Virus record (IMG/VR): IMGVR_UViG_3300005530_000048
Span: 1 to 41,911 of that record
DNA: 41,911 nucleotides
Reading direction: 5' to 3' (one strand)
From: a virus
Shown here: piece after piece, positions 1 to 25,181 of the stretch
Layout of the letters: each line of letters opens with the position of its first letter
How positions within the stretch are numbered: position 1 is the first letter of the stretch
Position numbers and translations under genes: made by a program
The notes under the pieces: model-generated
Database searches by the model: none
What the model saw: only the letters and a program-made list of their open reading frames with translations
Told to the model about the DNA's origin: nothing

Positions 1-3000
1 GCTCGCAAGGGCCGCGACGCGCGCGAAGTTGGTGATGAAGTGCATGCCGTTGTAGCGGAACAGCGCTTGGTTGATCTTGTAGCTGAGCGACCCCGGCGTA
101 CCGGTTGCGCCGTACGACATACTGAGTGCTTCGCTCAACGCATGTCGTTCGACGACGCCCAGCGCTTCGGCCTGCGCGCGCAGGTACGTCGGATTCGATT
201 TCCCCCACGCCGCCTTCAGGCCGGCGCGATAGCCCGCTAGCGCGGTGCTGAAGCTGGAGCTACGCGTCCACGGACCGAGACCGTCGATCAGGTTGCCCAG
301 TGCGCCGAGACCGAGCACGCGGATATTCTGGTAGGTCACCATCGCGTTGCTGATGTGCTCCCAGGCGCGCGAGTCCGGTCCGGCGAGCTTCGTGCCGAAC
401 AGGCTGTCCATGCCGGCGAACATCTTCTTGATGATTGGAGGTCCTTCTGGATCGCCGTAGACGCCGAGCGATGCATCCACGTAGTCGCGCGCACGCTGGA
501 TGTCCTCGTTCTTCGCGCCCTGCTTTTTCGCCTTGGTGAGCAGCTCGTCGACCAGGCTGTACCGCTCGATCTTGCCGTCCTCCCCCTTGCGCGCGCGGAT
601 GAAGCGACGGTAGTACTCCGCGCGCTTTACGCCCGAGCGCAGCATCGGCAGGTAGGTGTTGTAGAGGTCGGGGTTCTGGAACTTCGCCATGCGGTCGATC
701 AGGTCCTGGCGGCCAGCTTGCCGCAGGAAGTGCATGACGCGCGGGCGGAACGACGGGCTCGTGGGTGCTGCGGTGCCGCGCATCAACGGGTCGCCCGCTT
801 CGGGGGAGTTCCGCCGCAACGCCGGGTCGCTGGACGCCATGTGGTAGAACGCATCGATCATCTCGTCCGGCGTCATCGCACCGACGGCTTTCTCGGCCTC
901 CTCCTTGCTCTTGCCCTGGCGCATCTCCTGGTTGCGGAAATAGTCGCGCGCCGCGGCTTCGAGCTTCGGATCGGTCTTGATCGAGGAGAGGATGTCGCGG
1001 AACTCGCCCTCGTTGTCGCGTACCAGCGTGTGCATGATACGGTACGGGGCGAACTGGTCGATGTGGCCCATCTTCCCCTGGCCTTCCTTCAGGCCGCCGC
1101 GCACGTAGCTCTCGAACCGCGCGGCGAAGTTGAGCAGCTCCTTGCGCTTGACTTCGAGCGCCGGATTGCCTTCGATCGGCTTGCCGGTGAAGAGCGCCGC
1201 AGCCAGTGCGTCGTGGTCGCCCTTGGCTACCGGGTCAACGACCGTCGCAAGCGCGTTCGCCCACGTGCCGAACTCGCGATGGAACGCGTTGTTGAAGGAT
1301 TCCTCGTCGCCGACCTCACCGGTCATGCGGTTCATCTTGGCGAGCAGCTGCCTGATCGCCGGGATGTTGGTCCGCCGCAGCTGGTCGTCCAGGCCGCGCA
1401 GCATCTTGTTCACCAGCGGCTCGATGACGTGGTCGCGGACGTGCAGCGCGTAGTTGATGGAACGACGCAGGCCGATCCGCGCTTTGAGTGTCACGGCTTC
1501 GGCGTCTTTCGCTTTCGTCTGGCGCTGGCGGAGATCGGCCAGGTAGTCCGCCCGCTGGCGAGCGCGCACGTCGTTCGAAGCGGCGTAGCGGTCGCGACGC
1601 AGCTCGTCGAAAATGCGTTCGCCGAGCTCCGCGCCGGACTTGAGGCCGAACACGTTCTGGATGTTCTCGCCGAACCGGCGCATCGCGCCGGCGTAACCGG
1701 TGCCTTGGCCTTCGCCCGAGAGCTTCAGCTCGCCCTTGGACCACAGCGCGTACGCCGCGTTGACCGCGGTGTCCATCTGGGTATCGAACGCCATCAGGCG
1801 GTCGCGCAGCTGCGGGAACGACTTCAGGATCTTCTCGAACACGTCGCGGCGAGTCACCAGGCGCTCGATGAGCCCGCGATCGCGCGCGTTGAGGGTGTGT
1901 GATATGTCCGACGGTCGGCTGCCGTCGCTGCCGGACGGACGGTTAGGGTCTTGCCCTGGCGGCGGGTTTTCGCCTGCGCCCGTCGTACCGGGGCTGGTCG
2001 GAGCGTCGGAGGCAGCGGCGAGCGCTTCCTCGCGCGGCATTTTGCCGCCGATCGCGTTGGCCGCTTCGTAGCTGGCGCGCGCCACGTCTTCGGGCGCCTC
2101 GGCCGAACCGTGTTCGAACGCGTTCTGGACGAAGTCCTTGAACGATTGCGGCGCCTCGCCCATCTTGGCGTGCTTGCTGCCGGTCAGCATGTCGTGCACG
2201 AGCTGCATGGCATGAGCGACCTTGGCGAAGAAACGCCCTACGGCTTTCTGCACGAACGCGTGCCCCTGCAAGGCGCGCGCGGTCGAGTCCGCGAAATACT
2301 CGTTGAAGTGCAGCAGGTAGTCGCGGTCAGCTTTCGACGCCATGTCGAGCGGCTTGCCTTCAGCTCCCAGCCGCACGTCGGCCAGCGTGCCGAGGAACGG
2401 CGCCCGCGAGCTCCTGATCGAGCGGGCTGTCTCATTGGATGAGACACGCTCCTTCAGCCAGCGATCGAAGTCGGCTTTGATCGCCTGCTTGGTCGGATCG
2501 CTGTCGGGCAGCTTGTCGTACAGCTCACGCATCATGTGGTGGCCGTACTCATGCATCAGCGTCGAAATCATTTCGTGCGGCGCGAGGTCGGACCGGATGT
2601 GGATGATCGGGGTCTTGCCACCCGTCTGGTAGGCGCCGATCCCGAGCTCGTGGTTCTCGCCGTTGACCTGCACGACGTTGTCACCACGGTCGAACAGGCG
2701 CACGCTCGGTGCTTCGATGCCGAAACGCTTGGACAGCTGCTTCACCACCGCGTTGAGCTTCGACTCGGTCTGCCGCGGGTTGTCCTTGGTCGCGGCGGCC
2801 TCGTCCAGCGCCTTCTGCACTTCCTTGAACGCGGGCGACTGCTTTACGGCTTCGACGGTTTGCTTGACCGAACGCGGTTCGTCGTCGGCGCGCTGGAAGT
2901 CGTCGCTTTCGACCTTCGAGTGTTCGATGTCACTTCGGGCGTTCGGCTTCTGCGCCGTGTTCTTCAATTCGAGCGGCCCAGCTTTCGCAGCCTTCTCACT

Positions 3001-6000
3001 GTTCGTCATGCCCACCCGTTCCTTCGGATGCTTCACGCCGTCGACCTTGTCGAGCTGCTCGGTCAGCCGATCGTTGCCGTCGGCGACGCGCCGGATGGAC
3101 GTCAGCAGCCCGCGCTGGTCTTCGCTGGTGGGGAGCCGCTTCGCAGCCTTGTAGCTCGCCGTCAGCCGGCCTACGTCGTCGCGCGCTGGCGGTTTGGTGC
3201 CCGATCCGCGCGCAGCAGACGAAACCCGGCCGCGGTCGACTTTCAGCCGTCCGGCCAACCGGTCTACATCATCCAATGTTGCTTCGTATTCCTTCGACCC
3301 TCTACCTGCGACCGGGTTCTCGGCTGCGCCGCGCTCCTTGACGCGCACGTCGGTCTGTCCCGCTTCGCGGAACTGATCCATGATCGCCGCACGTCGTTCG
3401 GCGTGCTTCGTACGCAGCGCCTGCGCTTGTTCTGCAGCGTCCTTCATGTTCGCAACCGCGCGGCTGTGCGCAGGCTGGTCGCCGCGCGCCTTGGCAGTTT
3501 CGGCCATCTTCTTTGCCGCGCCGTACTGGCGCTTGAGCGTGGCGACTGCACCTTCGTGACGCTGATCGCCGGCGATGATCCGGTTTGCGAGCGACCGACT
3601 GCGCGCGGCACCGGCATCGCCCTTCATCACCTGCGTATCGCCCGTACCCACGCCGGGGTACGTGCGCGGTGCGAAGATGCGCTCGTCAGCACCCGGGTCG
3701 TTGAAGTCGCCTTCGCCGGCGGTGCGCTCCGGAGATTCAGGGTCGATGATCGACTGTTTCGACTCGCCGCGCGTCTGACGTTCGTTCTCGGCAGCCACGC
3801 CTACTTCGACGCTACGTGCTGGTTTGGCTTCTGCATCGCGCTGCATCTCTGCGCGGGCGTCCGCCGAACGCTGGCGCGACAACAGCGTGCCCTGGCTGGC
3901 GACGCGTCGACGGATCTCAGCGACGTCCGAAGCAGTCAGCACGCCCGACTCTTCACCGTCGTCGGGAAAGACGTGCATGCCCTCGCGGATCGAGCGCGGG
4001 CTGATCGTCTCGCCGCGCGTCGCGGCTTCGCCGATGACGCCGAGCACGGCGCCGACTTTCCGGTTGGGCTCGCCTTCGAGCAGCGCACGACCGGCTTCGG
4101 TCTTGGTCAGCCCGCTCGCGGCCATGCGCAAATTGAGCGCCTGCGTGGTCGTCCCCGTGCCACTCTTCTTCGGCACCTCGACCGCAACCTGCTCCTCGCG
4201 CGGCATCGTCGACTTCGAGATGTCGCCTGAGAAGTGCGCGGCGGTCCAGGTACGATCGGGCACCGTACCGAGTTCTTCGTTGGGCAGCGCGTCGCGCTCG
4301 GTCAACTTGCCCTCAAGTCCGCCCGTGCCTTCGCCGCCCTCAGTGCCGATCGCCGCACGCCCTTCTTCGTTCGCACCGATCGACGCGGCATCCGGCGCGA
4401 CTTTGCTCGCCGCGTCCTTGGACGGCGCGAGCGTCAACCGCGCGCGCTGGCCGTCGTTCAACGCACCGACGGTGAGCAGCAGCCGCTTGAAGGGCGTCTG
4501 GGTCGTGTCAGGCAGGGAGTTGAGGTACCGACCGACATTGGTCTGGTCGGACTTGTCGAGCGAATCGAAGCCGTTGCGGATCGCCTTCGCCGTGGCCTTG
4601 ACGGCGTCCGTCGTGCTGGGTACGGCGTGCTGCGCGGGCGGCAATAGTGACGCGACGGTCGCCTCCAGTTTGTCGGGGTACGTCTCGGCCATCTGCTTGA
4701 CCGCGACCGGATCGAAGAGCTTCGCACCCGGCACGTTGTCGGTGGTGCCGATCGTGACCGCGCCGGTGTGGTCTTCGTTGAGGTCGTAGGGCTTGAGGTC
4801 GCCGAACGTGTCCTGCTCGAACTGGCTGCGGGCACGCTGAATCTGGTCGAGCCGCTGGTTGAAGATCGCACCGGCGTCGCCGGTCTTGGCGGTACCGTCG
4901 AGGTTGACCTCTTCGCCGGGCTTGGGCGCGGCGTTCTCTTGTGCTTTGCCGATGCGTTGCGACAGGCGCCAGAGCTTGCCCTTCGCGCCGAACGACGGCA
5001 GCTTGATGTCGCTGAACCGCGCACCGGCCGGCGCACCCAGTACGGCGCCCGCGACCGCGCCGCTGGCGGCGCTGTTGAGATACTCGGACAGTGCGTCGGG
5101 CGACACCAAGCCGTCGGTGAGACCCTTGCCGGTGATCCAGTTGTGCACGACGTGGTTGGCCGCGACCGTTGCCGGCGCGATCAACCCGCCGATCGCCGCC
5201 TGCTCGCCGCCTTCCTGCAGCATGCGCCGCCACAACGGCTTGGACATTTTCTCGGCCAGGGCCTTCTCCGCCGCCGCGCCGACGCCGTAGCGTCGCATCA
5301 GCGCGAGCCCCGGCACCGCCATCAGCGCGCCTTCGCCAACCGCGCCGGCCAACGCCTGCCGGGACTGCGTCTGGAGATCGGCGTCCGACGCGTTCGGATC
5401 GACGTTCGATGCCGCCGGTGCGCCCGCGAGATAGGTACCGCCCGCCACGGCGCCTGCCTGCTGGCCGATTTCGGCGGGCGGCGTGCTTGCCGGCGACACC
5501 TTGTTCGCGATCTGCTGCAAGCGCGGCAGTTGCTGCTGTGCGACGGCATCCGTCGCCATGCTGGCGGCTTCCTCGGGCGTCGCGCTCTCGGCGATGTTGG
5601 TGCCCGCGCGTGCCGCGACGTTGCGCGCGGCTTGGCCGGCTGCCGCGTCCGCGCCGAGCGCAGTGCCTTCGCGCGCGATCGCCGCCTCGCCGGCCTCGCG
5701 GGCCAATCCTGCGAGCGCCGCGCGGCGCAGTCCACCACTTACAAGGCCGCCAACGCCACCCGTCGCGATGGCGGGGAGCACGGTCGCCGCGATACCAGGG
5801 ATCGCAGCGCCCAGCTGGTGTTCGGCCCAGGTGAACGCGTCGCCCACGCCGTTGATCTTGTGCAAACTGTCGGGACTGCCGGAGTCGTAGTCCGCTGCCT
5901 GTGCCTGGTCGGTCTGCATCGCCTGCAGGCTCGCGCGCTCGCCGGCTGTGTCGCCAACAGCGCCTTTTGCGAGCCCGGCGATGCCGTGGCCACTGGCCTT

Positions 6001-6267
6001 CAGTCCTTGCCAGCCGGAAGCGAGGCCCGAGAGGAAAGGATGATCCTGGCCGTACTCTTGCCGCGCGGCCTGTTGCTGCGCTGCTTGCACAGCGGCCTGA
6101 TCCAGGTCAGCGTCGGCCTGCGGAGGTACCGGAGGCGGACTCAGCCGGCGCAGCGTGTCCGGAGGCGGCTGCAAGAGCGCCGGGGACTGCGGCAACGGCA
6201 CGAGCCCTGGACGACGTAGGCCCGGCGGTGCCAGCAGCAGGTTCGGGTCATCCGGTGAATAAGCCAT
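1..6267 (-). CDS. Giant phage polyvalent protein with zinc metallopeptidase motif (3' end outside window)
   Basis: The frame is open for 2089 codons from an ATG at 6267 and runs off the left edge, so the C-terminus is missing. Seen: a Gly/Ala-rich hydrophobic stretch near residues 145-180 that could be membrane-active; a long low-complexity charged middle; HEYGH at residues 1239-1243 followed by NEYFAD at 1322-1327. HExxH with a downstream Glu is the zinc-binding pattern of gluzincin-type peptidases (H1239, E1240, H1243, E1323). The last visible 600 residues are helical and resemble the C-terminal parts of phage large polyvalent proteins (LPD38-like, from memory). Known of such proteins: they are often virion-packaged and enter the host with the DNA. 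Its place as last gene of the late module fits an ejected internal protein. An AGGAG lies unusually close (1 nt) to the ATG. The peptidase motif is clear; substrate and true role are not. Confidence 0.85.
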   Translation of the reverse strand, partial: MAYSPDDPNLLLAPPGLRRPGLVPLPQSPALLQPPPDTLRRLSPPPVPPQADADLDQAAVQAAQQQAARQEYGQDHPFLSGLASGWQGLKASGHGIAGLAKGAVGDTAGERASLQAMQTDQAQAADYDSGSPDSLHKINGVGDAFTWAEHQLGAAIPGIAATVLPAIATGGVGGLVSGGLRRAALAGLAREAGEAAIAREGTALGADAAAGQAARNVAARAGTNIAESATPEEAASMATDAVAQQQLPRLQQIANKVSPASTPPAEIGQQAGAVAGGTYLAGAPAASNVDPNASDADLQTQSRQALAGAVGEGALMAVPGLALMRRYGVGAAAEKALAEKMSKPLWRRMLQEGGEQAAIGGLIAPATVAANHVVHNWITGKGLTDGLVSPDALSEYLNSAASGAVAGAVLGAPAGARFSDIKLPSFGAKGKLWRLSQRIGKAQENAAPKPGEEVNLDGTAKTGDAGAIFNQRLDQIQRARSQFEQDTFGDLKPYDLNEDHTGAVTIGTTDNVPGAKLFDPVAVKQMAETYPDKLEATVASLLPPAQHAVPSTTDAVKATAKAIRNGFDSLDKSDQTNVGRYLNSLPDTTQTPFKRLLLTVGALNDGQRARLTLAPSKDAASKVAPDAASIGANEEGRAAIGTEGGEGTGGLEGKLTERDALPNEELGTVPDRTWTAAHFSGDISKSTMPREEQVAVEVPKKSGTGTTTQALNLRMAASGLTKTEAGRALLEGEPNRKVGAVLGVIGEAATRGETISPRSIREGMHVFPDDGEESGVLTASDVAEIRRRVASQGTLLSRQRSADARAEMQRDAEAKPARSVEVGVAAENERQTRGESKQSIIDPESPERTAGEGDFNDPGADERIFAPRTYPGVGTGDTQVMKGDAGAARSRSLANRIIAGDQRHEGAVATLKRQYGAAKKMAETAKARGDQPAHSRAVANMKDAAEQAQALRTKHAERRAAIMDQFREAGQTDVRVKERGAAENPVAGRGSKEYEATLDDVDRLAGRLKVDRGRVSSAARGSGTKPPARDDVGRLTASYKAAKRLPTSEDQRGLLTSIRRVADGNDRLTEQLDKVDGVKHPKERVGMTNSEKAAKAGPLELKNTAQKPNARSDIEHSKVESDDFQRADDEPRSVKQTVEAVKQSPAFKEVQKALDEAAATKDNPRQTESKLNAVVKQLSKRFGIEAPSVRLFDRGDNVVQVNGENHELGIGAYQTGGKTPIIHIRSDLAPHEMISTLMHEYGHHMMRELYDKLPDSDPTKQAIKADFDRWLKERVSSNETARSIRSSRAPFLGTLADVRLGAEGKPLDMASKADRDYLLHFNEYFADSTARALQGHAFVQKAVGRFFAKVAHAMQLVHDMLTGSKHAKMGEAPQSFKDFVQNAFEHGSAEAPEDVARASYEAANAIGGKMPREEALAAASDAPTSPGTTGAGENPPPGQDPNRPSGSDGSRPSDISHTLNARDRGLIERLVTRRDVFEKILKSFPQLRDRLMAFDTQMDTAVNAAYALWSKGELKLSGEGQGTGYAGAMRRFGENIQNVFGLKSGAELGERIFDELRRDRYAASNDVRARQRADYLADLRQRQTKAKDAEAVTLKARIGLRRSINYALHVRDHVIEPLVNKMLRGLDDQLRRTNIPAIRQLLAKMNRMTGEVGDEESFNNAFHREFGTWANALATVVDPVAKGDHDALAAALFTGKPIEGNPALEVKRKELLNFAARFESYVRGGLKEGQGKMGHIDQFAPYRIMHTLVRDNEGEFRDILSSIKTDPKLEAAARDYFRNQEMRQGKSKEEAEKAVGAMTPDEMIDAFYHMASSDPALRRNSPEAGDPLMRGTAAPTSPSFRPRVMHFLRQAGRQDLIDRMAKFQNPDLYNTYLPMLRSGVKRAEYYRRFIRARKGEDGKIERYSLVDELLTKAKKQGAKNEDIQRARDYVDASLGVYGDPEGPPIIKKMFAGMDSLFGTKLAGPDSRAWEHISNAMVTYQNIRVLGLGALGNLIDGLGPWTRSSSFSTALAGYRAGLKAAWGKSNPTYLRAQAEALGVVERHALSEALSMSYGATGTPGSLSYKINQALFRYNGMHFITNFARVAALAS

Positions 6268-6312
6268 GCTCCTTTCGTGCTACAGTCCGCACGTCGTGTG
6301 GGAGGGAGTGCC

Positions 6313-6723
6313 ATGACGCATAAGTCTTACTACGAAGCGGCTGCAGCCGAGGTGACCGCGGGCCACTTGGACAGCGCCCTGTGGATCAAAGTCAACGCCG
6401 ACATGCCTAACGCCGACAACGGCGCACGACAGGCGAAGTACATCGCACTACGTGCGCAGGAGCTAGCGGCAGAGAACACGGAGCAGTCAATCCGCCGATG
6501 GATACCCCGGTCAAGGATTGCGCAGCTGCTCGCGACCGTTGTTATCGCAGTAGTCGTGTCCGCCGGTCTCGGAAGCGTTGGCGGCCTGGATGCGACACCT
6601 GTACCCATAATTGTGTTCGCTGCGATCGTCATCGGCGGCCTCTTCTGGACTATCCGCCGGACGCGGGCTGCGAGCGGTGCAAGCCGATCTGCTGCAGCAC
6701 CTTCCAGTACGCAGGCGAGATAG
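6313..6723 (+). CDS. Small two-TM membrane protein, moron-like
   Basis: The product is 136 aa. The ATG at 6313 is chosen because a GGAGGGAG ribosome site lies just upstream. Residues 1-55 are soluble and helical, with a SYYEAAAAEV...LDSALWIK pattern that recurs, from memory, at the start of many small proteobacterial membrane proteins. Two hydrophobic segments follow (about residues 70-92 and 96-113), then a short basic Ser/Ala tail. It is the only plus-strand gene inside the leftward late module, its start faces the start of the giant gene, and its 3' end overlaps the 3' end of the 6650-8164 gene by 74 nt. That placement is typical of a moron, a gene expressed independently of the late operon, often from the prophage. 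No convincing -35/-10 pair was found in the 45-nt gap. Function unknown. Confidence 0.7.
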   Translation: MTHKSYYEAAAAEVTAGHLDSALWIKVNADMPNADNGARQAKYIALRAQELAAENTEQSIRRWIPRSRIAQLLATVVIAVVVSAGLGSVGGLDATPVPIIVFAAIVIGGLFWTIRRTRAASGASRSAAAPSSTQAR

Positions 6724-8164
6724 TACGAAGAAGCGCTTCGTTGTAGTTCGGCGACCCCCACAAACCACTGCGCCTCGGGTACTCGTTAGTCGGGGCATCG
6801 CTGTTGTCGTAGAAACCAGCGAAGTCGCCGTTCTTGTCGAGCTTCATGTTGCCGAAGTTGACGTTGCTCGCCAAGTTCGCCTTGTCCCCCCACTCTATCG
6901 GAATGTCGAACGGTGTTTTGAGCGACTGTGCGGCACCGCGCTGCATGGATTGCTTCAACGCTGTGCTCCACGCCTGCCCTGCCGGGTTCGTAGTGACCCA
7001 TTTCTTGAACTCGTCGGGTGACAGTCCTTGGGGCGTCGTTTGCGCGATAAGGGAATCTCCACTACCGGGCAGCTTGTTCTCGGCGTTCTGGTAGTTCGTC
7101 ATGAAGTACTGCGCGCCTTGCCGTGCTTCTGCGCGATCAGCACGATCAGCCATCTGCTCCCGGTATTGATCGGTGGCTTGGTCGCGTTGCGTACGTTCCG
7201 CAAGGTTCGCGTTGCGGTATCGATTCATGAGCACGTCTTTGAGGCCGATACCGCGACCGCCTGCTGCACCGGTACCTCCGACACCTCCCATCGCGCCGTA
7301 CATGCTGCCGTTACCGCCAAAGTACTGCTGGCGGACGTCCTGTTCGTTACCTTGCAGCTGCGCGAGCGCTGCACGGTTTGCCGCCTGCACTTCGGGGTTC
7401 GTCGAATTCGGATCGTTGTTCATCGCCGCGATCAGTTGGCGCTTCGCGTCTTGAGCCGCCTCGGGATTGATGCCCGCTGCGGTGATCATGTCGGCAGGGT
7501 TCATCCGCAGGCTGTTCTGCGCGTAGGTGAACCCCGCGTGTGGACCGCTCGCAGCACCCAGCAGCGAACCTGCGCCGCTCGCGTCGACGACGCCGGCATT
7601 GGGATCGTACGCGCCGCCTTGTGCGCCCGGCGCCATGGTGTAGCCCTCGGCGTCGGTGATCGCCATGCGGGGGTCGTAGGACGTGCCCCCTGGACGCCGC
7701 AGGCTCTTGACGCCGGCAGCTGCCGCGTTCGCCGCCGCGCCGCCGCCAAAATCCGGCGCGCCCGCAGCGCCCATGACGTTCGACGCCATGAACGATCCGT
7801 CCTTGCCGCGCGCGATGTAAACGCCAGGGATCGAGCTGCGAACGACGCCTTGGGGTAGCGCTTTCAAGCCGTTACCCTGGATCTCACCGTGCGGATATCC
7901 GGCGTCTGAAGGATCGAGCTCGACCTGGCTGTTTGGAGCGGGCGCCGCGACGGTTGCCGCTGGTTTCGACGTCGCACCCGTAGCCGCGAAATTAGCTACG
8001 GCTTGGGGGCCAAACTGCGACGCTGAAGCTGCCGACTCACCAGGCGGCGCATTCTTGTTGATCATCGAACCAGCCCAGTTATTGAAACTGTCGTACAAGC
8101 TCGGCGCCGGGCGGTTCTTCAACCCCCGCTTCGTATCGTTCGGCAAGTTCGGATCAAAGGCCAT
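6650..8164 (-). CDS. Gly/Ala-rich virion or internal protein, unknown function
   Basis: The product is 504 aa from the ATG at 8164, which lies 9 nt after GGAG; two upstream in-frame ATGs at 8173 and 8170 are too close to that site. The N-terminal 100 residues are Asn/Ala/Pro-rich and the middle is Gly/Ala-rich with many short YDPN and GAQGG-like runs. Residues about 300-380 look helical and charged. The C-terminus contains a SPAYWKVLQQIGL segment. No catalytic motif or membrane segment was recognised. It overlaps the upstream 124-aa gene by 11 nt and lies just before the giant polyvalent gene, the position where short-tailed phages usually keep internal ejection proteins. That role is inferred from context only. 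Confidence 0.7.
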   Translation of the reverse strand: MAFDPNLPNDTKRGLKNRPAPSLYDSFNNWAGSMINKNAPPGESAASASQFGPQAVANFAATGATSKPAATVAAPAPNSQVELDPSDAGYPHGEIQGNGLKALPQGVVRSSIPGVYIARGKDGSFMASNVMGAAGAPDFGGGAAANAAAAGVKSLRRPGGTSYDPRMAITDAEGYTMAPGAQGGAYDPNAGVVDASGAGSLLGAASGPHAGFTYAQNSLRMNPADMITAAGINPEAAQDAKRQLIAAMNNDPNSTNPEVQAANRAALAQLQGNEQDVRQQYFGGNGSMYGAMGGVGGTGAAGGRGIGLKDVLMNRYRNANLAERTQRDQATDQYREQMADRADRAEARQGAQYFMTNYQNAENKLPGSGDSLIAQTTPQGLSPDEFKKWVTTNPAGQAWSTALKQSMQRGAAQSLKTPFDIPIEWGDKANLASNVNFGNMKLDKNGDFAGFYDNSDAPTNEYPRRSGLWGSPNYNEALLRTISPAYWKVLQQIGLHRSQPASGG

Positions 8165-8528
8165 CGTCATCATCTCCGTCGTCGAACACCGACGACATGA
8201 AGTTGTAGTTGGGCGTTCCGCCGTTCTGCATCGCCATACGGCGTTTCATCGCGTCCAGTTGCAGGCTCACCGCGGCTTTCTGCTGCAGATGCTGTTGGAA
8301 CTGCTGCTGCTTGAGCTGCTGCTGGTATTCGGGATTCGAGAGCCCTTGCGGCCCGAACACGCCCGGCATGTCGCGGCTTTCGACGGACCCATAGTTGTTC
8401 GGGTTCCACTGCTGCGCGAGCGAACCGTAAGGCGCGTTCTGCGCAGCCTGTACGCGGCGCAGCCCCGCCTGCACTACCTGTGTCTGTTGCTGGCGCTGGA
8501 TAGGCGCCCACCAGGATTCCCAGTTCAT
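8154..8528 (-). CDS. Gln-rich small virion-associated protein
   Basis: The product is 124 aa and very rich in Gln, with a central run of QQQLKQQQFQQHLQQK that should form a helix or coiled coil. It ends in an acidic DDGDDDD tail. The ATG at 8526-8528 shares one base with the stop of the upstream gene (TGATG), and a GGAGG sits 7 nt before it, so translation is coupled. The family was not recognised. Its small size, low complexity and place between two structural-type genes suggest a minor internal virion protein or a chaperone for its neighbours. Confidence 0.65.
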   Translation of the reverse strand: MNWESWWAPIQRQQQTQVVQAGLRRVQAAQNAPYGSLAQQWNPNNYGSVESRDMPGVFGPQGLSNPEYQQQLKQQQFQQHLQQKAAVSLQLDAMKRRMAMQNGGTPNYNFMSSVFDDGDDDDGL

Positions 8529-15318: not shown

Positions 15319-15486
15319 TCACCATTTGTTTTTCGGACAGTGCCCGCGGGTGGAACGAACCTTGCTCTTGATGGGGCACCCGCACTCCCCGCAGATTTCT
15401 ACACGTACCAACGGCAGCACTTTCTTGTACTCGCAAGTACTACAAACGTCGTAACGCCGGCGCTCTTCTCCCTGTTCCTGACTCAC
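15319..15486 (-). CDS. 55-aa zinc-ribbon protein
   Basis: This short gene fills the gap between two structural genes. The GTG at 15484-15486 overlaps the upstream stop (ATGTGA) and has GGAGG six bases before it. The stop at 15319-15321 lies just before the next gene. The product has CSTC at residues 15-18, CGECGC at 32-37 and HC at 49-50, a treble of cysteine pairs expected to bind one or two zinc ions, with a basic C-terminus. Similar tiny zinc ribbons sit among the late genes of many phages, from memory, and their function is unresolved; a structural or assembly role is possible. The cysteine spacing, start signal and tight packing make it a convincing real gene. Confidence 0.8.
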   Translation of the reverse strand: MSQEQGEERRRYDVCSTCEYKKVLPLVRVEICGECGCPIKSKVRSTRGHCPKNKW

Positions 15487-16754
15487 ATCGTGCCTCCGCC
15501 CGCGTCTATGACTTTGGCAGTGACGTAATCACCTACGGTCAAGACCGACGGCCGGCTGCCGCGGCCCGCCGCGATGTACCGGCTATCGCCGTCTTTCTGG
15601 AAGAACGTCGCCGCCATCGCGGCGAATTGCGGATACGCGAATTTGGTATGCAGCGGCACAGCCGTTCCTTGCACGCCTGCTGTAGGAACACCCGTTTTGT
15701 CGACCCAAACGGGTGACCACGTCGTGACGCCTTCGATCGCCAGCGCGTCTGGAGACACCATCGCCATCGATCCCGGCACGACTCCGATGTGCGCGAGCAC
15801 CGTCAACGTCGCTTGTTCCAACGACTCGCCTTCGAATTTGTACGCACGCGCATCCGTACCGATGTACATCAAAAATGCCGTCGCGTCCGCAGCCGCGACC
15901 ATCGTGATCGTTGCTGGCAGCGACGCAAAATTCGTCGCGTACCGGTACAGACCGTACCGCATGGGCTCAGACCATACGAGCCGGCGGTCGACTGCGCCGA
16001 TGAGCCGTCCGTGCTTTAGCTGCGGATAGCGCATCGGTGGCACCGGTCGCATGAAATTGGTATCCAGGCGACGCCCGCGTGGCGTCGCCACCACCATGTA
16101 CGTCGAGCCCGGAACAACTGACCCCGCGTATTGCAGCTCCTGGCCGTTGGCGGTCGTCACATACACGCGCACTTCGGTAACGTTGAAGTCGACAGCGGTA
16201 GGTACGCTGACCGTAATGCCGCCGCCGGCCAAGACGTCCACTGACTTGAGCGCCGTGGCGCCCCCCTCTTCGCCGTCAGAATTAACGAACGTCGCGGAGA
16301 CCGAGTATGCCCCTGCATCCATGCCGCCCGCGGACAGCGCCGCAACTGCGATATTGGACGGGGTTTCAACCCCCCACGCGCGCGCGTCGCCGGCGAGCGT
16401 GACTTTTCCGCACACGTTGCCGTCGGACCAATAAACGCCGATCGGCGTCATGCAGTAATGCACGTCGCCTCCGGAGAGCCCGCTGGCCGCCTGCTCCAGA
16501 ACGCCCTCCGCAGTCAAGCTGTAGAGCTTGTCGCCCGCGGCGACAAGCGCGTACATAAAGCCCGGATGCGACCACAACGAATGGGCTCCGGGGAGCGCCG
16601 CGAACAGCGTGTACCCTTCGCGCCGTGAGACGACACCGTCATTTGAGATGTCGACGTTTACCGCCGCGCGCGCGTAGCCGGGCGGCAGCTTGGTTTCAGC
16701 CTGCCGGTTTGCGAGGCCCTTCGCGAAGCTGATCGGAACGGTCTTGTCCGCCAT
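15483..16754 (-). CDS. Tail nozzle / packaged-DNA stabilisation-like protein
   Basis: The product is 423 aa. The N-terminus (LANRQAETKLPPGYARAAVNVDI then a Gly-Val and RREGY) matches the opening of phage beta-propeller proteins that plug or extend the short tail, such as those acting like P22 gp10 or T7 gp12. This is family knowledge applied from the pattern, not from a search. The rest is beta-rich with repeated short blades and a central Ser/Val/Thr region near residues 160-220. It follows directly after the connector gene (5-nt gap), the usual position for a nozzle protein. Confidence 0.65.
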   Translation of the reverse strand: MADKTVPISFAKGLANRQAETKLPPGYARAAVNVDISNDGVVSRREGYTLFAALPGAHSLWSHPGFMYALVAAGDKLYSLTAEGVLEQAASGLSGGDVHYCMTPIGVYWSDGNVCGKVTLAGDARAWGVETPSNIAVAALSAGGMDAGAYSVSATFVNSDGEEGGATALKSVDVLAGGGITVSVPTAVDFNVTEVRVYVTTANGQELQYAGSVVPGSTYMVVATPRGRRLDTNFMRPVPPMRYPQLKHGRLIGAVDRRLVWSEPMRYGLYRYATNFASLPATITMVAAADATAFLMYIGTDARAYKFEGESLEQATLTVLAHIGVVPGSMAMVSPDALAIEGVTTWSPVWVDKTGVPTAGVQGTAVPLHTKFAYPQFAAMAATFFQKDGDSRYIAAGRGSRPSVLTVGDYVTAKVIDAGGGTM

Positions 16755-16758
16755 GGCG

Positions 16759-17460
16759 TCACCAAGAGAACTGCGCAGGCTGAACCGAACGCCGCATCCG
16801 CTTCGCTTCGTACTTCCGGTCCTCGGCGAGTCGGTAAAACTCGGACTCGAACTGCTCAGACCGCTTCGAATCGTAGGTATCGGAATCGTGCTTGGCGTAC
16901 GCCAGCTTCTTCATCCACAGAACGACAAGGTGCTTGTCCTCGCGCGTCGTGAACGGCAACGGCGAACCTGGCGCGAACGCGGGGATCGTGCTCGCGGTGA
17001 GGGTCAGGGTGTCGTTCGCCACCGGGATTGGCACCAGCCGCAGGTTGCCCGGCTTGTAATCGCGCAGATAGAACCGCGGCGAGCCCGTCTGTTGTTCCCA
17101 CTTGGTGCTGAACAGGATGAACGGCGAGTTGTAGTCGTCGTGGTAACTGAAGCCGCCGTCTGTGTTGCGCGGCTGCAGATAGCGGTTTGCGCCCTGCAGG
17201 TACGCATGCTCAATGTCCAGCACCGTCGTAGACCCCTGCAGCGGCACCAGGGGCTGGTTTGCCGTAACGGGCAGCTCAAACGTCTGGAATTGCACCAGCG
17301 TTTTTCGCGCAACGTATTCGACCGCGTCGGCGAGGTAATCATTGACCTCATCGATCTTCCACAATGCATCCGCGTCCGGCGTGTCGACCGGGCCGCGCAG
17401 CGGATCGTCTACATCGCTGCGGAACCGGTTGGTGACATCGTCGGACGTGATGAGGGCCAT
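16759..17460 (-). CDS. Head-to-tail connector/adaptor protein
   Basis: The product is 233 aa. The N-terminal 60 residues are helical (VTNRFRSDVDD, then WKIDEVNDYLADAVEYVARKT). A beta-rich middle contains FYLRDYKPGNLRLVPIP, and the C-terminus is helical (SKRSEQFESEFYRLAEDRKYEAKRM cut to its pattern: long charged helix). This helix-beta-helix plan is typical of ring-forming adaptor proteins that bind below the portal in podoviruses. The next gene downstream is the nozzle candidate. Family assignment is by pattern and position. Confidence 0.65.
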   Translation of the reverse strand: MALITSDDVTNRFRSDVDDPLRGPVDTPDADALWKIDEVNDYLADAVEYVARKTLVQFQTFELPVTANQPLVPLQGSTTVLDIEHAYLQGANRYLQPRNTDGGFSYHDDYNSPFILFSTKWEQQTGSPRFYLRDYKPGNLRLVPIPVANDTLTLTASTIPAFAPGSPLPFTTREDKHLVVLWMKKLAYAKHDSDTYDSKRSEQFESEFYRLAEDRKYEAKRMRRSVQPAQFSW

Positions 17461-17467
17461 CGGACCG

Positions 17468-18034
17468 TCAGGCGCTCTTGATGGCGGCGTTCAGAAGTGT
17501 CTGCTTCTGGGCCGCGAGGGAACGGCCGAGGATCGCGTCCGGGGCGACGCCCAGCGCTTCGGCATATTCCTTGACGCCGCTTGGCGTATTGAGCGACTGG
17601 ACTTCCAACACCGTTGCGAGCGCCTTGTGCGCAGGAAGTTGCTCTCCCTCGCTCTTGATCTGGCGGTACCGGTCCCAGTAGGTGTTGCGTTCGCTGGAGG
17701 TCAGCGACAGCCCAGTCGCCGCGTTGATCGCGGCTACCTTTGGCCGGCCGCCGCCGTCGAACTGCTCGACATCATTCATCTTCACGATGTCGTCGATGCA
17801 GCGCAACGCCAAGGCGTCGCGCAAGATCCCCGTCACGACGACCTTCTGCGGTGAAGCGTCGTTAGCCTCGTTGACCATGCCATCCTGTCCGTCAAGCGGC
17901 AGGATGTTGAACCCCATAGCCTCGGATACGACCTCGTCCGGCACCGAAACCGGCGTGTCCGGCGTGAACCGGATGCAATGACCCTGCTTCGTTCGCAGAG
18001 TGAAGTGACGCGAGCATTTCATCAGTACAGGCAT
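17468..18034 (-). CDS. Head-completion or minor virion protein, unknown
   Basis: The product is 188 aa from the ATG at 18034, which follows AGAGGAC; the longer open frame upstream crosses the terminator hairpin and is not supported. The N-terminus carries a basic beta segment with LMKCSRHFTLRTKQGH and then VSVPDEVVSEAMG. The C-terminal 100 residues are helical. Its place between the capsid genes and the connector suggests head completion. No family was recognised. It is the first gene after the hairpin at 18081-18107, so its expression may differ from that of the capsid genes. Confidence 0.65.
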   Translation of the reverse strand: MPVLMKCSRHFTLRTKQGHCIRFTPDTPVSVPDEVVSEAMGFNILPLDGQDGMVNEANDASPQKVVVTGILRDALALRCIDDIVKMNDVEQFDGGGRPKVAAINAATGLSLTSSERNTYWDRYRQIKSEGEQLPAHKALATVLEVQSLNTPSGVKEYAEALGVAPDAILGRSLAAQKQTLLNAAIKSA

Positions 18035-18074
18035 ATCGTCCTCTCGTGGCTGCTGTGAAAAGACGCGGCCATCA

Positions 18075-18107
18075 AAACAAGGGGGTGGAGATCGCTCCCA
18101 CACCCCC
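18075..18107 (-). terminator. Intrinsic terminator after capsid genes
   Basis: Read on the minus strand, GGGGGTG pairs with CACCCCC, with an inner GAG/CTC and a TGG bulge, and the hairpin is followed by TTGTTTT. It lies 27 nt after the stop of the 127-aa virion gene and 40 nt before the next ATG. It probably lets only part of the capsid transcript continue into the tail genes. Confidence 0.65.
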
Positions 18108-18133
18108 TCGCCCGGCAGCCACGCCAGGGACAA

Positions 18134-18517
18134 TCAGTTGCCGTACGTCTCGTTGGTACGTCCGACAACCACGTAACGCAGGTCAAACACGGCCTCGCCC
18201 TGTGTGGGCGCGCCGCTTACTGCAAAAGTCACCGTGCCGCCCTGCGGGTAATACGTGCCCGCGCCGGCGGCAATGCCGGTGTGGCCGAGGGCCGTCGCTG
18301 CGACACTGCCGAAAATGGAGATCGGCGTGCCGCTGCTGTCGACGGCGGTGAGTACCGGGGTGGTGCCGTTGAACACAGTGGTGATGGCCAGATCGCCGCC
18401 GAGGAGCATCGCCCCTGGCTGCAGCGCCATCTGCACACCATTGGCGATGTCCGCAGCGGTGAAATGCACCGTCGCATGCAAGCCCCACTGCCGGCTGTCT
18501 TCGATTCGAGCAGTCAT
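18134..18517 (-). CDS. Small head protein, decoration-like
   Basis: The product is 127 aa and beta-rich, with Gly/Thr/Val runs (TPVLTAVDSSGTPISIFG) and a C-terminal AVFDLRYVVVGRT strand. It directly follows the major capsid gene (12-nt gap) and precedes a terminator, so it would be made at a level close to that of the capsid. Size, composition and position suit a capsid decoration protein, but no specific family was recognised and another minor virion role is possible. Confidence 0.6.
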   Translation of the reverse strand: MTARIEDSRQWGLHATVHFTAADIANGVQMALQPGAMLLGGDLAITTVFNGTTPVLTAVDSSGTPISIFGSVAATALGHTGIAAGAGTYYPQGGTVTFAVSGAPTQGEAVFDLRYVVVGRTNETYGN

Positions 18518-18529
18518 GGTTCAGTCCTC

Positions 18530-19651
18530 TTAGATCGCGGTGTCGACGCTGATCACACCGAAATCCTCGGTGGTGCCGGTGTAGATCGACGGAAACACTG
18601 GCTTCTTGAACCCGATGATCTTCGCGGCGGAGATGCCGGGGCTGTTGTCGTAGTCGAAGTCTTTCTCGACCCACATCGGCAAGCCGATGTCGGCGAAACC
18701 GAGCGCCTGCGCACCGCACAGCAGCACGCGCTGGCCGTCGGTGGTACCGGAGCTACCCCACTTCGAACCCGAGGCCGCGCCCGTCGTGTTGAAGACGTGC
18801 CGGTACTCCAGGATGTTCATGCCGTCGATGTAGATGCCGTCGGTGCCGCCGAGGTTGGTACCCTTGAACAACGGGTTGGAACCACCGCGCTGCATCGCCA
18901 ACTTCCAGACCTCCATGAAGTCCGGGTCCTGCTTCAGCGCCGCGATGCCCTGCGGGGACATGAAGACGTTGTAGCCCTGGACACCGTTCTCGCCGCGCAG
19001 CGGCTTCACGTAGGTGCTGACGGCCTTTGCCTTCAGCTGTACCAGCATCTTCCAGCTCGGGGTATCGGCAGCCGCGATGCTGGTCGTGTTGGCCGCAGCG
19101 AGTACCTTGTTGGTTCCGTCCCAGCGGAAATGCCGGTTGGCAGTCGGCGCCGAAATGTCCGCGGCGAAGTCAAGCTGCGGCCATTGCGAGCCGATGCGCG
19201 GCGCGCCGTTGGAGTGCTGGGCGTATGCGACACCCGACAACGTCAGGAACCCCAACTCGTCCATGCTGTTGGCGAGCCAGTACTGCAGGGCGTTCTTGGA
19301 GTTGTTGCGGAAGGTCACGACCGAACGTTGGTCGGCCATGCGCCCTTCGAGACGATTGGCGTGGCGGATCTGGTCGATGTTGATGACCTGGTCAGCCGAG
19401 TTCATCGCCTCTTCGTTGCCTTCGAGCTGGTTGTCGCCGACAACACCGTCACCTTGCAGGTCTTGGACCAGGGTGATAACGGCACGGGCACCTTTGTTGC
19501 CCTTCTTCAACTCGGTGATACGTTGCACCATCGCGCCGGGGCCGCTGCCCGCGAACGCGTTGAGGAACGAAACGTTGCGAGCGGCGTGCCACAGGTCACG
19601 AGACCAGAGGGTCAGCTGCTCAGTGGTGAGCTTGGAAAAATTGGTAAGCAT
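18530..19651 (-). CDS. Major capsid protein, N4 gp56-like
   Basis: The product is 373 aa from the ATG at 19651, which lies 7 nt after AGGAA. Recognised by the N-terminal LTTEQLTLWSRDLWHAAR, the GKGARA-like turn followed by LVQDLQGDGVVGDNQLEGNEE, and the ADQRSVVTFRNNSKNALQYW block. Together these fit the N4-gp56/DUF4043 family of HK97-fold capsid proteins. Near residues 230-250 is a VFMSPQGIAALKQD segment common to this family. It builds the icosahedral shell. It follows the scaffold candidate and portal, in the canonical order. The 5' leader of 233 nt holds a long hairpin and repeats, unlike the tight junctions elsewhere. Confidence 0.85.
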   Translation of the reverse strand: MLTNFSKLTTEQLTLWSRDLWHAARNVSFLNAFAGSGPGAMVQRITELKKGNKGARAVITLVQDLQGDGVVGDNQLEGNEEAMNSADQVINIDQIRHANRLEGRMADQRSVVTFRNNSKNALQYWLANSMDELGFLTLSGVAYAQHSNGAPRIGSQWPQLDFAADISAPTANRHFRWDGTNKVLAAANTTSIAAADTPSWKMLVQLKAKAVSTYVKPLRGENGVQGYNVFMSPQGIAALKQDPDFMEVWKLAMQRGGSNPLFKGTNLGGTDGIYIDGMNILEYRHVFNTTGAASGSKWGSSGTTDGQRVLLCGAQALGFADIGLPMWVEKDFDYDNSPGISAAKIIGFKKPVFPSIYTGTTEDFGVISVDTAI

Positions 19652-19835
19652 TGCCGATTCCTGCCCTTGAGCGGGCAAACTGAGGTCGCCCCACGTTGAC
19701 GCTCTGGGACTTCAGCGGAATCGGCATTGATGGCGCCGAGGGCCAGCTGCTTGCTTTACGCCCAACAGCGCGGGCGAGATGACCGTGACGTGATCAGAAC
19801 GATCGTCGTTTTACGCCCGACGATGCGGCGAAATC

Positions 19836-19876
19836 GCAAACACGACTCGAACTTATGCAATTCGAGTCGTGTTTGC
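19836..19876. repeat. 16-bp inverted repeat in the capsid leader
   Basis: GCAAACACGACTCGAA at 19836-19851 is followed after 9 bases by its perfect reverse complement at 19861-19876. It lies 8 nt past the scaffold stop and 185 nt before the capsid ATG. The outer AAAC/GTTT arms give an A-rich/T-rich border like a bidirectional terminator, but no extended U tract follows. It could be an attenuator, an RNA-processing site or an mRNA-stabilising 5' end for the capsid message. Confidence 0.7.
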
Positions 19877-19884
19877 AAGGGGGG

Positions 19885-20820
19885 TCAGCCGACAAAATCT
19901 CCGCGGAGCCGCTTCTTGGTCGCCTCCGGCAATTTGTCGAACTCCTCGTCGCTCAACTTGGATACATCGATCGAGAGCGCTTTTTCCGTGGGCGCCGACT
20001 TGTCGGTGTCCGGCGGTTGCTTCTTCGCCGCCTCGACGTTGGCCTTCACGTCGGTCTTGCGTTTCTCGGGGATCGACTCACGACGCATGCTCTTCTCGTC
20101 GAAAATGTCACGGCCGAGTACGTACTTGAGGGCGCGCTTCAACGCCGCGGCCGGAGCCACGCCTCGCGCCTCGTAACCGTCGCGGATCGCGGACACGTCC
20201 GCCAGCAGGTCGTCGCTGAACTCCTCGTGCTTGGGGTTCAGTTCGGGCACCAACAACTCGACTTGGTCCACAACGGCTTCGTAGGCAGCCAGGTGTTGCG
20301 CCTGTACCGCACGCTGCTGCGCGATGTACTCCGTCTGCGCCTTGTTGGAACTATCGCGCATCTGATCCAGCTCGCGCTGGAGCTTGGCAGCTTTCTTGTA
20401 TTCGCCCTCGGCGCGCGCGACTTCGACGTCCTCGTACAGCTTGTCAACTTTTTCGGTGAACTCCTTGAACGCCTTGCCGTGGCCGCCTTGGTCGCGCAGT
20501 TCCCGCAGCTCCTCTTCGAGGGCGACGGCACGCGCTTCGGCTTCCTTGCGCTTGCGCTGCGACTCCGTGAGTCGCGCGCGCGGCACCATGGGGTTGGGGA
20601 CGTCCTTCTCTACTTCATCCTTCCCTTTTTCGTCGGCGGTCTTTTCGTCGGCGCCTTCTTTGCCTTTTTCATCGCTGGTTTCCTCGTCTTTCTTCGCCCC
20701 TGCCTCGGGTGTGGCACCCTCATCGCCGGTTTCCTCTACGACCAGCTCGTCGCCACGGTCAGTCAGGTTCTCGCCTGCATCGTGATCGAGTACGTCGTCA
20801 ACTACTGCCTCCTTTGCCAT
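19885..20820 (-). CDS. Scaffolding protein candidate
   Basis: The product is 311 aa. Residues 1-75 are strongly acidic and low in complexity (Glu/Asp/Lys repeats). Residues about 80-165 form a coiled coil (SQRKRKEAEARAVALEEE onward), and the C-terminus is charged and helical, ending in KKRLRGDFVG. An acidic, helical, low-cysteine protein between portal and major capsid genes is the usual signature of a capsid scaffold. No protease motif is seen, so the scaffold would be removed or retained by an unknown route. Role inferred from composition and position. Confidence 0.75.
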   Translation of the reverse strand: MAKEAVVDDVLDHDAGENLTDRGDELVVEETGDEGATPEAGAKKDEETSDEKGKEGADEKTADEKGKDEVEKDVPNPMVPRARLTESQRKRKEAEARAVALEEELRELRDQGGHGKAFKEFTEKVDKLYEDVEVARAEGEYKKAAKLQRELDQMRDSSNKAQTEYIAQQRAVQAQHLAAYEAVVDQVELLVPELNPKHEEFSDDLLADVSAIRDGYEARGVAPAAALKRALKYVLGRDIFDEKSMRRESIPEKRKTDVKANVEAAKKQPPDTDKSAPTEKALSIDVSKLSDEEFDKLPEATKKRLRGDFVG

Positions 20821-20828
20821 GACTACCT

Positions 20829-22898
20829 CTACGTGGCTGCTTCGTCGGGTTGTGCGCTCGCCTCTTGCTGCATCTTCGCCATCTCACGGCGATGCTGCAG
20901 CTCCATATCCGTCAAGGACAGCGCGGTATCCTTGTCGGACTTTTGCCTATCGTGCGCGATGCGCGTCATGTCGCGGGCGTGTTCCAGTAGTAGTCGATTC
21001 TGGTCCAGCGCGATGCGTTGACCGGCCGGATCGTTGCGTGCATCGGCGAGCGCCTTGGCGGCGCGTGCGTGCGCGAGATCCGCCTGCGCGGCAGAGTTGA
21101 CACTGGACGCCTGCTTCGCGGCCAGCTCGGCCTGCATGAGCGCCTGCTGCAGCGCCTGCTGCTGTTGCTGCGCGTTCTGGTCGCCCTGCGCTTCCTTCAC
21201 GGCCTGGATCACCGCGGACTTCTGCGGGATCGAGCTGTACTGCAGCAGCACTTCGTCCGGGATCATCATGCCAAGGTCTTGGCGCATTTCCTTGAGCTGC
21301 GCGAAGGTTGTCTGTTGCACCGTGTCGCGCGATGGCGCCGGCACAACGGTCGCGTCGTACTTCCCTGTCGTGACGTCATTCAGCATTCGGCCTTCCGGCG
21401 TCGGCTGATTGATCGTCATGACGCCGGATTCGTTCGTGACACCGTTGGTATACCGCAGCAGGCGCGTCTCGGTGTAGAACGTTTGCGCCAAATCGCGTAT
21501 GTGTTCGGCGATCAGCGTCTTGGTGAAGTACAGCGCCTTGTAAGCCGTCGCCAGGTTCACCGAGCCGCGCGCGGCGCGGAAGTCCAGGGCTTTGCCCGTC
21601 GCCTCGGTGGACGCCGCGCCCTGCATGGCCTCGGTGTACCCGGAGATCTGGTGGAATTTCCCGTCGATGGTCTGCGCGAGATGGTCGTGACCGGAGGGCA
21701 GCTCCCCAGGCTCGATACGCTGCAGATGCTCCACGTCGTCAAGCACGGCCACGATTCCGGTCTTCGCACCACGTTGCTCCAGCTCCTCCTCGGTCATGTT
21801 CTTCAGGGAGTTTTGCTGGACTTTCCAGCCGCTGTTGGCAGCGGAATTGAGGATGTGGAGCTCCTGTGAATACAGCTTGTTGGTGAAGCGCTGCAAGTCG
21901 ACCAATTGATCACCGAGCCCCATCGTGTAGCCGTCGATGAAGTACGGAAAAAACGGCACGACTGTGAAGTGCTTGTATGGACTGTCCTCATCGTGCAGAA
22001 GGAATCGGTCGCAACTCACGGTCCAGCGAATCGTCTGCGTGCGCCGTTTGATGACGTTCACGCCTGTCAGCTGCACGAGCCGCCCTACGCGTTCGCGATC
22101 CCAGTTCTCCGGAACCTCGCTCATGTCGCCGGTGCTGGTGTCGACGAAGAAATCCTTGTACTTGAGTGTCCGATATTCGCGCTCGATCAGACGCCGGCAG
22201 CGCAGCAGTCGTGGATCGCCGTTCGAAGGGTCGTAGAAAGTGCCGCCATTGAGCCGCTGCGACAATTCGCGCTCCGCCACGGAGTCGTAGGGTGAGAGCC
22301 AGTCGGCCTGCGGCGTGCCTTCGATCTCCTTGGCCGCGGCATCACCGTATGTCAGCGCGATCATGTCCATATTGACGAAGCGCGTCGTGAACACTTCGGG
22401 CCACGTGTCGGGGTCAGGATCGTCGATCTCGGGATTCAATACGACGTTCTGCGGACGCGGGGCGGAGAGCTTGATCTGCCCCATCATCTGGTCGTCGAAC
22501 TCCACGCGGGTGCGGAAATAGCCGCGCCCCGACAGCATCCCCATGAACAGGACGCGTGGCTCGATGTACTCCAACTTGTTCTGCGCGGTGATCGAGCAGT
22601 ACAACTTGTCAAGCACGTCGCTGATGTCCTCGTCGCCTGCGTCCGACGGCGAAAACCGCACGTCGCCGGTCGAGTAGACCATTTCGCCGACGATGGAGTC
22701 CATGTCGCGGAAAAACTGATTGATCGTCAGTGCCGGCCGGTTGGACTCGCGCATCTCCGCCAGCTCTTCCATCGACCATTGCTGGCCGACGAAGAAATTG
22801 AGTCCCGTCTCCGTTCGCAACAAGTACGGATCGTGCCCATTGGCGCGGCAGTACTCGTAATAGCGATAGTTGTCGTATGCCTTGTCTTCGTCGCTCAT
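20829..22898 (-). CDS. Portal protein
   Basis: The product is 689 aa. Seen: the N-terminal YYEYCRANGHDPYLL, FFVGQQW and RPALTINQF elements, a mid-protein PFFPYFIDGYTMGLGDQL block, then LILN-type helices, a QISGYTEAMQGA segment, and a long Gln/Ala-rich helical C-terminus (QQQQQALQQALMQAELAAK) like a barrel helix. This order matches the P22-like podoviral portal family. The ring sits at the capsid vertex through which DNA passes. Its ATG overlaps the terminase stop by four bases (ATGA). Confidence 0.85.
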   Translation of the reverse strand: MSDEDKAYDNYRYYEYCRANGHDPYLLRTETGLNFFVGQQWSMEELAEMRESNRPALTINQFFRDMDSIVGEMVYSTGDVRFSPSDAGDEDISDVLDKLYCSITAQNKLEYIEPRVLFMGMLSGRGYFRTRVEFDDQMMGQIKLSAPRPQNVVLNPEIDDPDPDTWPEVFTTRFVNMDMIALTYGDAAAKEIEGTPQADWLSPYDSVAERELSQRLNGGTFYDPSNGDPRLLRCRRLIEREYRTLKYKDFFVDTSTGDMSEVPENWDRERVGRLVQLTGVNVIKRRTQTIRWTVSCDRFLLHDEDSPYKHFTVVPFFPYFIDGYTMGLGDQLVDLQRFTNKLYSQELHILNSAANSGWKVQQNSLKNMTEEELEQRGAKTGIVAVLDDVEHLQRIEPGELPSGHDHLAQTIDGKFHQISGYTEAMQGAASTEATGKALDFRAARGSVNLATAYKALYFTKTLIAEHIRDLAQTFYTETRLLRYTNGVTNESGVMTINQPTPEGRMLNDVTTGKYDATVVPAPSRDTVQQTTFAQLKEMRQDLGMMIPDEVLLQYSSIPQKSAVIQAVKEAQGDQNAQQQQQALQQALMQAELAAKQASSVNSAAQADLAHARAAKALADARNDPAGQRIALDQNRLLLEHARDMTRIAHDRQKSDKDTALSLTDMELQHRREMAKMQQEASAQPDEAAT

Positions 22899-24730: not shown

Positions 24731-25181
24731 TGAGTTCGTAGAAATCCGCGTCGATGATGTCTTCCGCGCCAAGAAGGTCGATCAGTTCGCTGTCGTCCAG
24801 CTGCGCGATCTGGCGCCGACGCGTATTGGCCTCGCTGGATATCGTTACGCGAACCTCGCGAGGGGCGTCATAACCGAGCATCTTCGCAATTTCGCGCCAC
24901 CCCGCGATCTGCGCCATCGGATCAGCCAGGAGATCAGCCTGATCGACGGCTTTCTTGATCCCCGCGACCACATCATCCTTGGTGATTTCGGCGCGCTGTT
25001 GCATCGCTGCGCGCAACTTCTCGCGCGCATCTATGACTTCCGGCCGACGCAGAACCGGCTGCGGATGAGCGATACCGGCGAGCTCGGCCGCGCGCGATTG
25101 CGACATGCCGAGCACTTCGATGTTGTAGACGAGCTTCTGCTCAGCTTCGCTCAGCCCGACTGTGGCGATGTCTTTTTGCAT
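24720..25181 (-). CDS. terS: Terminase small subunit candidate
   Basis: The product is 153 aa from the ATG at 25181; a GTG at 25214 would give 164 aa. Neither has a good ribosome site, so the start is uncertain. The N-terminus holds a helix-turn-helix pattern (SEAEQKLVYNIEVLGMSQSRAAELAGI), the DNA-recognition unit typical of small terminase subunits. A helical middle and an acidic C-terminus follow. It lies directly upstream of and overlaps the large subunit, and its 5' end overlaps the o-spanin gene. It should bind packaging sites and regulate the large subunit. Confidence 0.75.
   Translation of the reverse strand: MQKDIATVGLSEAEQKLVYNIEVLGMSQSRAAELAGIAHPQPVLRRPEVIDAREKLRAAMQQRAEITKDDVVAGIKKAVDQADLLADPMAQIAGWREIAKMLGYDAPREVRVTISSEANTRRRQIAQLDDSELIDLLGAEDIIDADFYELNGR

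Follow-up and report, generated by a model that had tools for sequence, protein, structure and literature searches.

The role of zincin domains in packaged phage proteins has been a question since the virion RNA polymerase (vRNAP) of coliphage N4 and the polyvalent proteins. The same question is raised by the IMG/VR virus record IMGVR_UViG_3300005530_000048 (a complete record of 41.9 kb, 41,911 nucleotides, the whole of which is referred to here as the window), where one end is occupied by most of a giant gene with an embedded zinc-peptidase motif. In this family the zincin belongs to a protein for whose T7 counterpart both a structure and an ejection model are available. The explanation that we hold with slightly more confidence than doubt is that the virus is a temperate short-tailed phage and that its giant product belongs to the gp16-type ejection proteins and contains a gluzincin of the polyvalent type, which would act in the host after ejection.

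The giant protein, its zincin domain and its kinship with T7 gp16

The preliminary description of the window, made from its letters alone, reported an open reading frame (ORF) of more than 2,089 residues. This ORF begins with an ATG at 6267 on the minus strand, runs for 2,089 codons and is still open at base 1. The extension of the contig, which had been proposed as a way to obtain the C-terminus, was carried out by a viral-contig search and confirmed the giant ORF. The search retrieved IMGVR_UViG_3300025912_000017 (60.5 kb), a longer contig of the same virus with 99.93% identity to the window over the shared 16.3 kb, on which the gene is complete with 2,338 amino acids (aa) and a stop codon. 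The remaining 249 residues lie on contig L001 (L001:10001-17017). The truncated part in the window gave no match by tblastn against phage records, and named phages could be linked to it only once the longer contig had supplied the C-terminus. The features of the gene within the window are as follows.

1..6267, minus strand: giant gene of the putative ejection protein, residues 1-2089 of 2338 (ORF and longer contig)
6269..6275, minus strand: good ribosome-binding site AAAGGAG, just upstream of the ATG (sequence)
5740..5796, minus strand: hydrophobic Gly/Ala segment 1, residues 158-176, candidate N-terminal membrane module (hydropathy)
5296..5352, minus strand: hydrophobic segment 2, residues 306-324, Gly/Ala-rich (hydropathy)
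2071..2811, minus strand: zincin-like metallopeptidase (MPTase) domain, about residues 1153-1399 (hidden Markov model (HMM) envelope, Pfam M78, AlphaFold2, Foldseek)
2539..2553, minus strand: HEYGH, residues 1239-1243, two predicted zinc ligands and the catalytic Glu (invariant in 49 sequences)
2287..2304, minus strand: NEYFAD, residues 1322-1327, with E1323 as the predicted third zinc ligand (invariant Glu)
1..690, minus strand: start of the gp16-like C-terminal region, from residue 1860 (homology; remainder on L001)

A gluzincin-type peptidase had been predicted from HEYGH and from NEYFAD, said to follow 84 residues later. Both motifs are present, with a counted spacing of 83, and the expected number of HExxH motifs in a protein of the same composition is 0.045. 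Relatives were retrieved using the C-terminal region alone; they are the best 80 of 254 matches and the query was built from domain-bearing members, so that any statement on the universality of the domain is limited to this subfamily. HExxH was found in 75 of the 81 full-length giants (0.9% of shuffled sequences); in almost every case it reads HExGH and lies 600-1000 residues ahead of the C-terminal signature. The other six comprise five with a degenerate domain and one reading HEAIAH. Across 49 aligned divergent domains, with a mean column identity of 16%, the only invariant columns are H1239, E1240, H1243 and E1323. The Pfam M78 (IrrE/ImmA) model matches the domain alone at 22.7 bits (cut-off 22), covering only its positions 25-70 of 123; against the whole protein it falls under the cut-off, and the whole-protein Pfam scan gave no peptidase above it. 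The curated Pfam LPD and MPTase-PolyVal models did not match the giant protein. Together, the four invariant columns and the M78 match make the arrangement a well-supported prediction of a gluzincin zinc site.

The C-terminal half is, by profile comparison, homologous to T7 gp16 (internal virion protein D). Residues 1860-2314 align with the giant structural protein that stands last in several named phages, namely KPP25, phiR18 and CRPAP1904 of Pseudomonas (E=1e-36) and phiA008 of Aeromonas (E=5e-25); the identity to the giants of KPP25/CRPAP1904 (Kochitakasuvirus) and phiA008 is 28-31%. The same region is matched by PHROG_30152 (virion structural protein, 6e-35) and by PHROG_342 (internal virion protein with endolysin domain, E=8.6e-9), whose members include T7 gp16 (E=0) and gp38 of the epsilon15-like phage TL-2011b (5e-210). 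Likewise, an HMM built from the C-terminus of the giant family reaches TL-2011b gp38 at 6.5e-18. The family signature, FVDESILRPNAAxRPxWASDPRFMLxxxLKSFxYSF, reads DEAVVRPHAGQRPLWHADP in the giant protein (beyond the window, on L001). It is recognisable at residues 1077-1130 of T7 gp16 (ADEAMLRPHKVS...MVMQFKSFTIKSL), directly before the second membrane region. A shared signature of the form DEA(V/M)(V/L)RPH...(Q)...SF also speaks for the gp16 link. The KPP25 homologue carries the deposited label 'structural protein'. A paper on phage tf assigned virion bands by size only and is not used here as proof of packaging. Matches of the giant protein to globin and to GEM-interacting protein were rejected as chance.

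An AlphaFold2 model of residues 1150-2338 has a mean predicted local distance difference test score (pLDDT) of 74. The claim that the protein is mostly helical is supported for this part, which is the part that the model spans. The domain model, with a core pLDDT of 85-93, consists of strands followed by the HExxH helix and a later Glu helix (fragment 102-122 and 193-205). In a Foldseek search of the PDB with the domain, the top ranks were mostly zincins (lethal factor, ACE, HtpX, MMP-11), none of them significant. A structure search of BFVD with the 1150-2338 model gave 58 matches at E<=1e-3. The first was the KPP25 structural protein (3.6e-25); further matches were entries named 'large polyvalent protein associated domain-containing' and many internal core or internal virion D proteins of T7-like and phiKMV-like phages. 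The PHROG and HMM matches, the signature and the structure search place the giant protein among the gp16-type ejection proteins.

The hydrophobic Gly/Ala segment noted earlier proved to be two, at residues 158-176 and 306-324. A candidate membrane helix near the C-terminus (residues 2195-2213, by hydropathy) lies beyond the window, on L001. Among the relatives, similar hydrophobic segments ahead of the peptidase domain are found in 27 of 42, and the C-terminal hydrophobic helix in 36 of 42 under a stricter cut-off. The capsid core of T7 holds gp16, which leaves before the DNA; the N-terminus of gp16 stays periplasmic, two regions span the inner membrane, and the stretch between them enters the host cytoplasm (PMC8954989). 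As the zincin is flanked by hydrophobic segments, the analogy with T7 suggests its delivery into the cytoplasm.

Proposed time and place of action of the peptidase

By the T7 model, the capsid core would house the giant protein, which would leave it before the DNA does and insert into the inner membrane by its N-terminal Gly/Ala segments and its hydrophobic C-terminal helix. The stretch between these membrane parts, the peptidase included, would come to lie in the host cytoplasm. There the refolded enzyme may cut once or a few times shortly after ejection. Its target could be the giant protein itself, parts of which would be freed, or a host protein, the two being about equally likely. The earlier suggestion that the protein is packaged and injected finds support in the homology to T7 gp16/internal virion protein D and in the gene position, and the peptidase would then act in the host as infection begins.

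The relatives contain natural exceptions. In five of them (L075, L079, L086, L089, L096) there is no HExxH although the domain is kept (HMM E 5e-28 to 8e-21); KELGN stands for HELGH and Asn for the third-ligand Glu, giving K/N/N at the three ligands. These five form a single clade with full support. Phages of the LUZ24-like group share the C-terminus with the giant family and do not have the zincin domain. In Curvibacter phage P26059B (Autographiviridae), gp06 (L028:5291-10021) is a gp16 orthologue (PHROG_342 2e-158) with an N-terminal glucosaminidase and the same zincin (MPTase HMM 6.7e-14), aligned after the TMH I region; it is annotated merely as an internal virion protein with endolysin domain. 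In Roseobacter phage CRP-810, the plan is split between two gene products: gp35 combines a pair of zincin domains with an ADP-ribosyltransferase-like domain, and the C-terminal region is found in gp34. The phiA008 giant (L006:4988-11137) has an N-terminal staphylococcal-nuclease-like (SNase) domain (7.9e-7), possibly an ejected nuclease. A Pfam scan of 42 N-terminal halves of relatives found almost nothing besides SNase in two IMG/VR relatives. Another relative of at least 3,682 aa (L023:2-11047) has three HExxH motifs, of which the first matches Pfam Peptidase_M48 (4.6e-5) and the last belongs to the domain of the family.

That a large helical protein should contain this HExxH by chance, as the negative whole-protein Pfam scan might suggest, has a negligible probability. 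This reading is refuted by conservation, since the motif and the third ligand are kept in position and identity in dozens of relatives that were retrieved without the domain as query. A rather improbable alternative is that cleavage precedes ejection, taking place in assembly or within the capsid, and that the peptidase thereby matures the giant or neighbouring internal proteins as proposed for P1 DdrB. Autoprocessing is favoured for many polyvalent MPTases, with DdrB cited as a protein cut down to about 76 kDa before it is packaged (Iyer et al., 2017; PMC5512222). However, the N4 vRNAP, which carries an MPTase, is packaged uncleaved (PMC5512222), which disfavours an obligatory maturation cleavage. 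The ligand-less clade also stands against it, as its ORFs remain full-length (2,356-2,719 aa) and cutting would hence be unnecessary for packaging proteins of such length, unless another protease does so. Together, the uncleaved N4 vRNAP and the length kept in this clade favour action after ejection. Similarly unlikely, in our estimate, is a purely host-targeting effector (e.g., against a defence or regulatory protein) for which the ejection protein is the carrier. Other cargo does occur in the same proteins (SNase in phiA008, the ADP-ribosyltransferase-like domain in CRP-810 gp35, glucosaminidase in P26059B), and such a role would fit the early-effector theme of polyvalent proteins (PMC5512222); yet effectors are usually variable and patchy, whereas the zincin domain is nearly universal in the family.

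The domain could also serve chiefly as architecture, with catalysis secondary: its fold would be required for packaging, or for the protein to unfold and refold in ejection. We consider this distinctly unlikely. In its favour, the domain survives in one clade after the loss of all zinc ligands, showing that the fold alone suffices in some lineages, and the N4 MPTase region is needed for encapsidation even though the protein is uncleaved (PMC5512222). Elsewhere, however, no residues other than the three ligands and the catalytic Glu remain invariant, as expected under catalytic selection, and this pattern argues for selection of catalysis in most lineages. Several points weigh against a gp16-type ejection protein whose peptidase acts in the host. 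Packaging, ejection, zinc binding, proteolysis and the substrate are all inferred, and the topology is borrowed from T7. The core HMM gave no direct match to T7 gp16 and hhalign to the single T7 sequence was weak, so that the T7 link runs via PHROG_342 and the epsilon15-like proteins. The structure models are of moderate confidence (mean pLDDT 72-74), and neither the domain nor the 1150-2338 model found a significant Foldseek match in the PDB. Finally, the proteins of the ligand-less clade are full-length despite K/N/N, and catalysis is therefore dispensable there.

Gene neighbourhood and the virus

The late-gene position noted earlier was right. Genes for terminase, portal, major head protein and head closure precede the giant gene on the same strand, which makes it the last of the virion block. 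As in gp16-type systems, it is the large last gene of the internal-protein cluster, after the head and tail genes.

15483..24772, minus strand: virion gene block (PHROGs)
15483-16754, minus strand: head closure gene (PHROGs)
18530-19678, minus strand: major head protein gene (PHROGs)
20829-22898, minus strand: portal gene (PHROGs)
22895-24772, minus strand: terminase large subunit gene (PHROGs)
8154..8528, minus strand: 124-aa late gene, gp14-like by synteny only
6650..8173, minus strand: preceding late gene of 507 aa with no clear family match, in the position of a second ejection protein, gp15-like by synteny only

A late gene of 1,473 aa (29440-33861), in which sensor-like and Ig-like segments recur, is matched by no PHROG and is probably a tail fibre or other adhesin. 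At the end of the window, a complete tRNA-Asn (41809-41885) adjoins an integrase gene (39126-40142). The longer contig matches the window up to base 41860 and has only the 3' 48 nucleotides of the tRNA (L145 about 6181-6232), followed by phage DNA. The end of the window looks like that of an integrated prophage, with the long contig as the attP form and tRNA-Asn as the integration site.

Comparison with known systems

Polyvalent proteins with MPTase domains and gp16-type ejection proteins are both already known. What is added here is that the two kinds are the same protein in a broad subfamily, in which the domain is nearly universal. No paper joining polyvalent MPTases and gp16-type ejection proteins was found in the literature searched, which left out most subscription papers, and a review of ejection proteins mentions no peptidase (PMC8954989). 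On a wider and more tentative reading, a large group of short-tailed phages, most of them uncultivated, might as a rule use gp16-type proteins to bring an obligatory zincin into the host cytoplasm as the genome enters; the N4 vRNAP would be one specialised branch, and in the ligand-less clade the fold would also serve the ejection machine. This clade is a natural control, with the domain kept and the zinc ligands lost.

MPTase domains have been described in packaged polyvalent proteins, the N4 vRNAP included, and were proposed to process the protein itself before or after injection or to attack host proteins (Iyer et al., 2017; PMC5512222). The giant protein resembles the polyvalent proteins (PMC5512222) in being a very large multidomain late-gene product with a zincin of the HExxH plus later-helix Glu type, and in having relatives fused to ADP-ribosyltransferase-like and nuclease domains. 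It combines several distinct domains, a gp16-like C-terminus and an MPTase, as polyvalent proteins do. It differs in that its C-terminal scaffold is identified as T7-gp16-type and in the missing match to curated polyvalent models.

The N4 vRNAP is related in plan, which is attractive by layout and not borne out by sequence. Its C1-C2 part has HELVH, NEFMAW about 84 residues on and a large helical C-terminal part, and the protein is packaged and ejected (PMC12633501). It carries an RNA polymerase domain that is absent from the giant protein, for which no T7-like RNA polymerase was found with Pfam or PHROG and no match to N4 either. In hhalign, the N4 and family MPTase profiles give E=8e-4 with 25% probability and the C-terminal parts do not align; hence, homology to N4 C2 is not claimed. 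The likeness of the N4 C-terminal NYDRLPGR...FYNFKIRS to the family signature is by eye only.

T7 gp16, TL-2011b gp38 and P26059B gp06 share with the giant protein the C-terminal homology, the place as last internal-protein gene and hydrophobic segments near both ends. In contrast to T7 gp16, the giant protein is almost twice as long and adds the zincin domain. Neither Pfam nor PHROG matched a peptidoglycan hydrolase or transglycosylase at its N-terminus. To our knowledge, an N-terminal peptidoglycan hydrolase is not general in gp16-type proteins, being absent in P22-like members. The giants of KPP25/CRPAP1904 and phiA008 have the same C-terminal region and a central MPTase (HMM 3e-23 and 3e-36); the KPP25 type differs in reading HESMH...EERIAY and phiA008 in its N-terminal SNase. 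The Pseudomonas KPP25-like phages, Aeromonas phiA008 and Curvibacter P26059B offer cultivable models, and gp06 of P26059B, a gp16 orthologue with both glucosaminidase and zincin, forms the bridge between T7 gp16 and the giant proteins.

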